Source: an uncultured Alphaproteobacteria bacterium (GTDB lineage Bacteria > Pseudomonadota > Alphaproteobacteria > Bin95). From it: 48,739 bases of DNA. Location of the stretch: positions 1 to 48,739 of the forward strand of contig CALAHN010000028.1 of NCBI GenBank assembly GCA_937891825.1. Reading direction: 5' to 3'. Below the pieces are notes generated by a model. The model had not been told where the DNA came from. It saw only the letters and a program-made list of their open reading frames with translations, and ran no database searches. Position 1 is the first letter of the stretch. Each line of letters begins with the position of its first letter. The translations under genes were made by a program, and so were the position numbers. This document shows positions 18,051 to 40,224 of this stretch, piece by piece.

Positions 18051-18185
18051 CTAGATCAAACCAACCTTAGGCGGAATCGCCTAGATCAAACCAACCTTAG
18101 GCGATTCCGCCTAAGGTTGGATAATTTGATCGCTATCAATAAGATAGAGCTTGGACCGCGCGTCCAGGTGGACGCGCCATGCTCT
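18051..18185. repeat. Dispersed two-hairpin repeat, copy 1 (with internal duplication)
   Basis: This 135-bp element lies between convergent secB and dnaQ. A full unit (18081-18185) matches copy 2 at 39781-39881 over nearly its whole length. It is preceded by a 30-base repeat of the unit's own 5' end (18051-18080). The duplication makes a perfect 21-bp inverted repeat: 18061-18081 pairs with 18100-18120, enclosing 18 bases. GATCAAA and TTTGATC flank it. The second hairpin (CGCGTCCA ... TGGACGCG) is imperfect, with a four-base insertion in the left arm relative to copy 2. The element ends AGAGC...GCTCT, 8 bases from the dnaQ stop. Confidence 0.85.
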
Positions 18186-18193
18186 GAAGCCGG

Positions 18194-37549: not shown

Positions 37550-38719
37550 CTAACGCCCGTCGGCGGCGAAGCGGTAGCGCTTGGCGATCCGCGCCCTGTG
37601 GGACTGCCCGTCATAGCAGACGATAACGGCATCGTGCGCCATGTCGCCCTTGCCGTTGGATGCGTAGGTCATCGCCGCGCCGTTGAAGCTGCCGGACGTC
37701 AGCGCTTGCCGGGCGGCCTCGGGCGTGTCGGCGCCGGCCTCTATGACCGAAGCGAGCACGGTGAAGGCGTCATATTCGGCGAGCGCGAAGGCGTCGGGTT
37801 CGGTCTCGAACCGGGCGCGGTAGGCTTCGGCGAAGGCAAAGGCGGGACCTTCGGTTTCCGCCGCCGGGGCGGACCCGCTTTCGGCGCAGACGCCGGCGAG
37901 CATGTCCGGCGTGAGCAAGGCTGCCGTGGTGGGTTGATGCATGGCGGAGCCGGCGACGATCGGCAGGGTCATGCCGGCCTCCCGCGCTTGCCGGATCGTC
38001 AATGCAGTCGGTCCGGCATGCAGGTGGAGCAGCACCCCGTCGGCGCCGCTGGCCTTGACCTTGGCCAAGGCCGCCGAAACATCCTTGGCGGTCGGCGGCA
38101 GGCCTTCCTCGTAAACCGGCCTGACGCCAAGCTTCGCCAGAGCCGCCGCCAACTGGGCGCGGCCGCTTTGGCCGTAGGCCGTGGTCTGGTAGAGGATCGC
38201 CGGGCGCTTCATGCCCACCTCACTGACGGCATAGCTCGCGTGGGCGGTTTTGACGACCGCATCGCCGGGGAAGAAGCGGAAGATATTCGGGCTGCCCATT
38301 TCGGTCAGCGCCGCTGTGCCGGAGATCGTCAGGATCGGGACGCCCGCCTGGTCCGCCAGCGGCAGGAGCGCCAGCATCTGCGAGCCGAGGATCGGTCCAA
38401 GCACGCCCGGCGGCGCGCCGTCCCTGAGCGCGCGGCGGAAGGCGCTGATGGCGACGTCGGGCGCGGTCGTCGTGTCCTGGACGTCGGCGTCGAAGGCTAT
38501 AGGGCCCTTGGCGCTGGCATGCTCCGCCGCCAGCACAGCGCCGTTGCGCTGGGCGCCGCCTTCGAGCGCGAGGAACCCGGTGATCGGTGCGAGGACCGAT
38601 ACCACGACTGGCTCCGCCGCGGCGCGATGGCCGGTAAGGGCCAAGGCCGTCAGGATAAGCGTCGCGGCGCCTACGAAGCGCAATTTCCATTGAATACAAA
38701 TCGTCAAGCGTAGCGTCAT
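37550..38719 (-). CDS. ABC substrate-binding protein, LivK/Peripla_BP_6 type
   Basis: A 389-residue exported binding protein (signal peptide with cleavage near HRAAA, about residue 35; a long n-region precedes the hydrophobic core). The lobes carry APITGFLALEGGAQRNGAVLA, GVLGPILGSQMLALLPLADQAGVP and ALAEYDAFTVLASVIEA, typical of type I periplasmic-binding proteins of HAAT transporters. It is the first gene after the TPP riboswitch, and its ATG (38719) lies nine bases from a GGGAG that is part of the aptamer. The ligand is inferred to be thiamine-related. Confidence 0.88.
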   Translation of the reverse strand: MTLRLTICIQWKLRFVGAATLILTALALTGHRAAAEPVVVSVLAPITGFLALEGGAQRNGAVLAAEHASAKGPIAFDADVQDTTTAPDVAISAFRRALRDGAPPGVLGPILGSQMLALLPLADQAGVPILTISGTAALTEMGSPNIFRFFPGDAVVKTAHASYAVSEVGMKRPAILYQTTAYGQSGRAQLAAALAKLGVRPVYEEGLPPTAKDVSAALAKVKASGADGVLLHLHAGPTALTIRQAREAGMTLPIVAGSAMHQPTTAALLTPDMLAGVCAESGSAPAAETEGPAFAFAEAYRARFETEPDAFALAEYDAFTVLASVIEAGADTPEAARQALTSGSFNGAAMTYASNGKGDMAHDAVIVCYDGQSHRARIAKRYRFAADGR

Positions 38720-38723
38720 AACG

Positions 38724-38812
38724 CCGTTCTCCCTTCGCTGGCATTATCCAGAGCAGGTTCGACGGGTGCTTCTCAGCCGCGCACAACGCGCGGCGCCCCA
38801 GCCGGCAGACCC
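38724..38812 (-). promoter_or_regulatory. TPP riboswitch (THI element) controlling the ABC transporter
   Basis: Read on the minus strand, the conserved THI blocks occur in order: GGGGCGCC, a perfect P3 hairpin (CCGCGC-GTTGT-GCGCGG), CTGAGA, ACCC, GAACCTG, TGGATAATGCCAGCG and AAGGGAGAAC. GCCG before and CGGC after can close P1. AAGGGAG is also the ribosome site of the binding-protein gene (ATG 38719), so TPP binding would hide it directly and block translation. Edges are approximate. The known function of this aptamer is binding thiamine pyrophosphate. Confidence 0.93.
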
Positions 38813-39000: not shown

Positions 39001-39459
39001 ATGCGTACGTTTGATTTTGCCCCCCTTTATCGCGGCGCCGTCGGTTTTGACCGGTTGGCCTCCATGTTCGAAACCATGGACCGCGCGGACGAGGGCGGTT
39101 TTCCCCCATACAACATCGAAAAGACCGGCGATGACGGCTATCGCATCACCCTTGCGGTCGCGGGCTTTTCGGAAGCGGACCTTTCGATCGAGGTCAAGGA
39201 AGACGAGCTGACGGTCGTCGGCGGGTCGTCCGATGCGGTTTCGGCCCAGGAGCGCACGTTCCTGCATCGCGGCATCGCCGCGCGTTCGTTCCGCCGCATG
39301 TGGCGCCTGGCCGACCATGTCGAGGTCGTGGGCGCGAAGCTTGAGCATGGCCTCTTGCATATCGCGCTTGAACGCCGGGTCCCGGAAGCGAAGAAGGCCC
39401 GCAAGGTCGAGATCGCGGGCGGCGAGCCGAAAGCGATCGAAGGCGAAACCGTCAACTAG
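39001..39459 (+). CDS. Small heat-shock protein (Hsp20/IbpA type)
   Basis: A 152-residue holdase chaperone that binds unfolding proteins. It opens FDFAPLYRGAVGFDRLASMFE and has the alpha-crystallin domain from about residue 37 (YNIEKTGDDGYRITLAVAGF) through LEHGLLHIALERRVPE (G-x-L motif). Regulation is visible: sigma32-like promoter and ROSE-like thermometer upstream, strong terminator downstream. Single-gene transcript. Confidence 0.92.
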   Translation: MRTFDFAPLYRGAVGFDRLASMFETMDRADEGGFPPYNIEKTGDDGYRITLAVAGFSEADLSIEVKEDELTVVGGSSDAVSAQERTFLHRGIAARSFRRMWRLADHVEVVGAKLEHGLLHIALERRVPEAKKARKVEIAGGEPKAIEGETVN

Positions 39460-39780: not shown

Positions 39781-39881
39781 CTAGATCAAACCAACCTTAG
39801 GCGGAATCGCCTAAGGTTGGATAATTTGATCGTTATCAATAAGATAGAGCATGGCGCGTCCACTTGGACGCGCCATGCTCT
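39781..39881. repeat. Dispersed two-hairpin repeat, copy 2
   Basis: A 101-bp element of two hairpins. Hairpin 1: CCAACCTTAGGCG and CGCCTAAGGTTGG with loop GAAT, closed by GATCAAA...TTTGATC. A short link (about CGTTATCAATAAGAT) leads to hairpin 2: two perfect 17-base arms, AGAGCATGGCGCGTCCA and its complement, around CT. Compared with copy 1 the hairpin-1 loop is inverted (GAAT versus ATTC) and hairpin 2 is intact. It lies between convergent hsp20 and Rieske genes, and its last bases supply part of the Rieske stop codon. Confidence 0.88.
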
Positions 39882-40224
39882 AAACAGGTTCGGTCAGGAT
39901 GACCTTGCCGTCGTCGATTGTGAAGGCGCAGGTTTCGAGCACGTCGCCGACACAGGGGCCGTCGATGCATAGTCCGGTCGCAGGTTCAAAACTGGCGCCG
40001 TGGGTCGCGCAGAACAGAAACTGCTTGCTCCGGTCGAAGAACCGGTCCGGGATCCAGTCCAGCGGCGTACCGGCATGGGGGCAGCGATTGCGGTAGACCC
40101 GGGTTTCGCCTTCCCAGCGCAGGACCACGAATTTCCGCATTTTCGCGCCGTCCCGGATCGTGACGCCGCGGGCGTCGTTTTCCGGCACGTCGGCGATCGC
40201 CAAGAGTTCCGTCCTGTCGCTCAA
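39880..40224 (-). CDS. Rieske [2Fe-2S] domain protein
   Basis: A 114-residue stand-alone Rieske protein. The cluster ligands are Cys48 and His50 (CPHAGTPL), Cys72 and His75 (CATHG). It resembles ferredoxin components of dioxygenases or NirD-like proteins, and would pass electrons in the cytosol; no oxygenase partner is adjacent. Its stop TAG overlaps the end of the dispersed repeat. It overlaps the EVE gene by ATGA. Confidence 0.88.
   Translation of the reverse strand: MSDRTELLAIADVPENDARGVTIRDGAKMRKFVVLRWEGETRVYRNRCPHAGTPLDWIPDRFFDRSKQFLFCATHGASFEPATGLCIDGPCVGDVLETCAFTIDDGKVILTEPV

Follow-up and report, generated by a model that had tools for sequence, protein, structure and literature searches.

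A probable MITE-like two-hairpin repeat of Alphaproteobacteria found very often at stop codons

The locus

The window (the whole stretch of 48,739 nucleotides that was analysed, contig CALAHN010000028.1 of an uncultured Alphaproteobacteria bacterium) contains two full copies of a dispersed repeat. Copy 1 extends from TA to TA at positions 39782 to 39882 of the plus strand and scores 123 bits to model R1. It lies between a gene for an Hsp20 family protein (39001 to 39459, plus strand) and a convergent gene for a Rieske [2Fe-2S] protein (39880 to 40203, minus strand; the start is uncertain, as the ORF is open to 40224). Copy 2 (18082 to 18186, plus strand), 21.7 kb away, lies between convergent secB and RNase_T-type exonuclease genes. 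The first-pass annotation had correctly reported the two copies, their spacing and their convergent neighbours, and its unit at 39781-39881 is real, but is displaced by one base. Its statement that the copies end a few bases from a stop codon is accurate for copy 2, whose end is 7 nt away from the stop codon of the exonuclease gene, but understates the case for copy 1, the last three bases of which form the TAG stop codon of the Rieske gene (39880 to 39882, minus strand).

A third copy of 30 nt (18052 to 18081, plus strand) adjoins copy 2. Only the 5' part is present, comprising half of hairpin 1, and it is broken at its CTAA, inside this hairpin, by copy 2. Judging from the sequence, copy 2 appears to be nested in it, inserted at a YTAR. 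The window also carries a TPP riboswitch (Rfam RF00059, 61 bits) at 38712-38810 of the minus strand, with a minus-strand ORF directly downstream (37550-38719) that looks like a gene for a putative ABC-type substrate-binding protein.

Architecture of the element

The element consists of (Y)TA, hairpin 1 (with a GAATC apex and a 4-nt bulge), a TCAA-N5 linker, hairpin 2 and TA(R). In copy 1, the 5' terminal TA (39782 to 39783) is followed on the plus strand by hairpin 1 (39784 to 39831), a 20-bp stem identified by folding and by compensatory changes. This hairpin opens with GATCAAACC and has the apex GGAATC, which includes a GANTC (CcrM-type) site, GAATC, at 39804 to 39808; in copy 2 the apex is inverted (GATTCC). 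The 4-nt bulge on the 3' arm, ATAA (39821 to 39824), is kept across families (alignment A4). The unpaired linker GTTATCAATAAGA (39832 to 39844, plus strand) leads to hairpin 2 (39845 to 39882, plus strand), which in the predicted fold of copy 1 has the perfect 17-bp arms first reported for it, whereas in most copies its 5' arm has a 4-nt bulge (GACC). The linker TCAA stands five bases ahead of TAGAGC, and the element closes with GCTC-TA(R), the 3' terminal TA of copy 1 being at 39881 to 39882. From the flanks and from empty sites in rhizobia, the two terminal TAs are presumed to be the halves of a TA duplication. Each end of the element gives TAG when read inward. The inverted repeat at the termini is short, just about 6 bp.

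Copy 1 folds into two hairpins at -65.4 kcal/mol (z = -13.9), and no shuffled sequence was equally stable. Among 28 copies from the host genome, double changes occur in 13 of 37 pairs. In an alignment of 19 sequences from the host genus, families f16 and f68 and rhizobia, they occur in 23 of 39 pairs, with 93% of cells paired; neither count was reached by any of 500 shuffles. Template-switch correction of dispersed palindromes can also yield covariation, so these changes show that the palindromes are maintained, but not by themselves that the RNA is functional. A search of Rfam returned no family above the gathering threshold for the element.

The link TATCAATAAGATAGAGC is conserved, as was first proposed: the pattern ATCAATNNGATAGAGC occurs 55 times in the genome with at most one mismatch, and the reversed pattern does not occur. 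The linker and the next TA (39834-39846) are together one base off WATCAANNNNTTR, which we take to be the IHF consensus. The match is perfect in Sinorhizobium fredii NGR234 and one base off in the host genus. This putative IHF-like site is a lead only, because the last TA of the linker is fixed by hairpin 2.

Copy number and genomic position

The host genome is a draft of 4.3 Mb in 163 contigs; its order, made up of uncultured Alphaproteobacteria, is represented here by one family with 14 species. A covariance model built from 28 copies has 119 matches in this genome at E <= 1e-3, some of which are counted twice on opposite strands, giving about 110 copies. The dispersed unit proposed from the two copies in the window is thus borne out. 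Contigs C11, C13, C22, C47, C62, C135, C139 and C147 of this genome (G000) start or end in or beside a copy. The repeat therefore appears to break the assembly, and the count of copies is probably too low. Hairpin 1 occurs alone, beginning with TAG, at G000:C120:6776, C51:9696 and C45:22411, a pattern in the DNA which suggests that single hairpins exist too.

Convergent gaps hold 29 of the 52 classed copies with more than 75 bits (26 of 43 with more than 95 bits), compared to 121 of 716 gaps overall; classed copies leave out those overlapped by a called gene or located at a contig edge. The bias toward convergent gene ends suspected by the first-pass annotation is therefore genuine.

Related elements

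Genomes G001 and G003 are MAGs of uncultured Alphaproteobacteria whose DNA is about 70% identical at the locus. Their elements follow this plan too, but almost every base of the stems differs. In one case (L097/L215 of G001 and G000:C17:975-1079), orthologous genes carry an element in the same stop codon with species-specific stems. This could reflect two separate insertions, or common descent with the stems changing in concert. Model R1 matches 11 of 385 genomes of the class. The broader model R2 matches 31 of the 385, from more than 20 families; the stems are almost wholly different and the pairing is kept. Ten candidates were scored per genome in this survey, such that its copy numbers are lower bounds. 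A longer version of the two-hairpin plan (137-139 bp) was observed at L286, L292, L293 and L294 (families f40, f81 and f35).

A blastn search of plasmids with the window copy as query found no match. A copy from family f16 matches plasmid pNGR234b of S. fredii NGR234 at 74.5% identity over its whole length, which supports the kinship with palindromic Rhizobiales repeats (AGAGC ends) that had been raised at first. The NGR234 copy in turn matches 207 plasmid records at 403 places, mostly in Rhizobium, Sinorhizobium and Ensifer.

Insertion at stop codons

Stop codons were assessed in 0.97 Mb of DNA around the copies (window included), in which 965 genes were called; gene ends are from our own calling except where rhizobial annotation exists. 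The terminal TAG or TAA of the element is the in-frame stop codon of a flanking gene in 42 of 62 copies (> 75 bits). The stop is formed by the hairpin-1 end only in 26 of these, by the hairpin-2 end only in 13 and by both ends in 3, while the other 20 copies are not placed at a stop codon. Of the 54 elements that have a classed neighbour on either side and are free of overlapping genes, 41 are at a stop codon; among noncoding YTAR sites that lie outside elements, 151 of 550 (27%) are stops (odds ratio 8.3, p = 3e-12). With only CTAG sites as background, the odds ratio is 5.8 (p = 7e-7). These tests were picked after the pattern had been seen in the host genome, and the counts from relatives serve as an independent check. 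Stop codons are occupied by 11 of 19 copies in G001 and G003 (5 of them at both ends), by about 12 of 17 copies in other families (for ORFs of 100 codons or more) and by 13 of 16 distinct copies in rhizobia. As background, stops make up 18% of all YTAR sites, including those in coding sequence, in the loci from outside the genus.

The element also has a sequence preference. Of the 39 copies that have a TA at either end, 30 are flanked as YTA..TAR. The base before the TA is Y in 29 of 32 stop-codon insertions, compared to 161 of 357 ordinary stops of the TA type (p = 3e-7), which indicates that the insertion machinery prefers this sequence apart from gene position. R likewise follows the far TA in 29 of 32 stop insertions, although this base no longer serves the gene; it is a remnant of the split TAR codon.

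Part of the enrichment at stop codons may be due to survival of copies there and not to the choice of target. If survival were the only cause, the element would insert at any YTAR and copies elsewhere would be lost. We consider this explanation somewhat less likely than not. It agrees with the YTAR preference, which is independently shown, and with the near absence of coding insertions, and insertions elsewhere would be expected to damage promoters and terminators. However, the enrichment holds even against YTAR sites within the same convergent gaps, where 25 elements are at stops and 4 are not, compared to 42 and 33 YTAR sites (odds ratio 4.9, p = 0.006), with small numbers.

Orthologs and unoccupied sites

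Nine orthologs of stop-carrying genes were compared in G001 and G003. Eight end at the same codon, seven of these with TAG or TAA, and one of the eight (in G001) already bears a G001-type element in its stop. The exceptions are one gene that stops with TGA and one that is 3 codons longer. The Rieske orthologs of G001 and G003 end with TTTAG and TTTAA, respectively, at the same codon and without an element. The shared stop position in the orthologs rules out that these stops arose when insertions truncated the genes.

In rhizobia, four occupied sites could be set against relatives whose site is empty, and in all four the element has entered a stop codon at its TA. The junction is exact to the base in one: the occupied site GAAC[TA..TA]GCC in S. 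chiapasense corresponds to the empty site GAACTAGCC in S. mexicanum and S. terangae. The remaining three agree but for small differences beside the junction; these are the NGR234 site (empty in S. fredii GR64 and SMH12), the S. chiapasense S24 site (empty in Ensifer and Shinella) and the E. adhaerens site (empty in S. chiapasense pB). One Shinella comparison lacks a clean TAG junction. In two empty relatives, S. chiapasense pB and Shinella WSD5-1, an annotated CDS ends at the junction TAG.

Proposed model of mobility

The repeat is most probably (roughly 0.85) a non-autonomous mobile element, MITE-like and of the CIR, RIME and Bru-RS kind, which inserts at YTAR with duplication of the TA and very often does so in stop codons. 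It is non-coding, present in high copy number and associated with a target-site duplication, as are MITEs. The exact stop-codon position best explains how copies are placed at gene ends without harm to the genes.

The target, the duplication and the rebuilding of the stop are supported directly by the data, whereas the manner of movement is proposed. The element enters at the TA of a YTAR site, very often one belonging to a TAG or TAA stop, and this TA is duplicated. Because both ends read TAG inward, an in-frame TAG is rebuilt in either orientation and the protein is unchanged. Where convergent genes share the TA of their stops, both stops are rebuilt by a single insertion. Movement would depend on a TA-duplicating transposase acting in trans, and the element may be moved as a folded complex bent at the IHF-like linker. 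Once inserted, the two hairpins would act as strong 3'-UTR structures that are tolerated and possibly useful, above all between convergent genes.

IS711 belongs to the IS427 group of the IS5 family. Its insertion into Bru-RS repeats takes place at YTAR and duplicates the TA (PMC3163539), which makes an IS427-type enzyme a candidate for mobilizing the element. The search for a mobilizing transposase with matching ends was negative, within the limits set by the draft assembly; in the host genome, IS427-type sequence is confined to a single truncated fragment at the edge of a contig, and IS630 is absent. IS427-type (PF13340) and IS630-type (PF13358) transposases of some genomes were rejected because their ends match only TAGRKC, which is all that the IS427-type elements of relatives share with the ends of the repeat. 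One IS427-type element (L298, G348:C236) has the ends CTA|GGTC..ACTCATAA and is flanked on each side by TA, so that its target is of the type used by the repeat. Among the stretches read there was no long autonomous parent with hairpins 1 and 2 bracketing a gene, and the search for one yielded just single hairpins and copies truncated where a contig ends.

Other functions considered

Selection at gene ends for a functional RNA 3'-end module, either an mRNA stabilizer or a bidirectional terminator, with mobility being incidental, is an unlikely explanation for the repeat. The very stable stems with their compensatory changes speak in its favour, as does the convergent position of 25 of 41 stop insertions compared to 42 of 151 YTAR stops (odds ratio 4.1, p = 2e-4), a bias which exceeds the prediction from stop codons alone; convergent sites may either best tolerate two hairpins or be places where hairpins help. 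However, none of the 62 copies has a T-run (>= 5 T in 8 nt) after either end, which rules out an intrinsic terminator; a terminator had been among the readings of the first-pass annotation. Four of the 62 copies are in divergent gaps, the pairing can be kept without function by template-switch correction of palindromes, and both the site-specific TA junctions and the presence or absence of copies between relatives point to insertion.

It is improbable that the repeat serves as a CcrM (GANTC) methylation site or nucleoid site, with GAATC displayed by the hairpin. GANTC occurs in hairpin 1 in 35 of 62 copies, at one identical position in 33 of them, in a genome that is poor in GANTC (1.03 per kb), and is also found in most copies from relatives. 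Nevertheless, a whole subfamily has a GGAAAC apex without GANTC, so this site is not required for spread.

A REP/BIME-type repeat moved by a RAYT (Y1 transposase) is very improbable: the repeat is short, palindromic, extragenic and present in high copy number, but the host genome has no Y1_Tnp match (the control search was positive in E. coli and Caulobacter) and the TAG ends of the repeat with TA duplication are unlike GTAG-footed REPs, such that the REP/MITE-like label given at first is retained in its MITE part only.

Implications and comparison with known repeats

There is an even chance, in our estimate, that in the two-hairpin repeats of Alphaproteobacteria, probably including RIME and CIR, the integration machinery actively prefers stop codons and the TAG ends make insertion harmless in either orientation. 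If this is true, the repeats use stop codons as a safe haven, and gene ends become hairpin-capped 3' UTRs. Insertion at stop-codon TAs provides a concrete, testable rule for the movement and placement of RIME, CIR and Bru-RS, repeats that have been familiar for decades. The rule extends to well-studied rhizobia. Many genes in these bacteria would end in the bases of a mobile element, with consequences for annotation, for studies of 3' UTRs and for understanding how mobile DNA finds harmless sites.

ERIC, RUP and Correia/NEMIS repeats resemble the element in length (about 100-150 bp), in having TA at their termini and in being folded. They differ in forming one long hairpin from terminal repeats, whereas here each end has its own hairpin. 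For RUP, the proposed mover is a transposase of the IS630 family (PMC2229807). Some copies of QMITE1 and QMITE2 of Coxiella burnetii overlap the 3' ends of genes by a few bases, but these are other elements with other direct repeats, and no systematic insertion into stop codons was reported for them (PMC5896051). The literature searched, which did not extend to the original CIR, RIME and Bru-RS papers, contained no earlier statement of repeats that target stop codons, and this habit is provisionally considered new.

The kind to which the element is assigned comprises repeats of other Alphaproteobacteria. CIRs are said to be the CcrM-associated intergenic repeats of Chen and Shapiro (2003), and RIMEs are reportedly the Rhizobium-specific intergenic mosaic elements of Osteras (1995). 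The CIRs of Caulobacter and Brucella, as described by Delihas, have two arms, a linker, a GANTC apex and TA termini (PMC2229807). Like them, the element is about 110 bp long and intergenic in Alphaproteobacteria, with two inverted-repeat arms, a linker and TA termini; the GANTC apex, compared by description, is matched in part (35 of 62 host copies). In the same review, the target duplication of CIR is listed as unknown and insertion into stop codons is not mentioned (PMC2229807). Bru-RS1 and Bru-RS2 of Brucella are palindromic repeats of 103-106 bp, and the target of IS711 is YTAR (PMC3163539); by description, they resemble the element in length and in the TA/YTAR target. For RIME, the likeness lies in the copies on rhizobial plasmids, including that of S. 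fredii NGR234, which share length, hairpins, bulges, linker and ends, and as a lead the NGR234 copy may be RIME1 itself.
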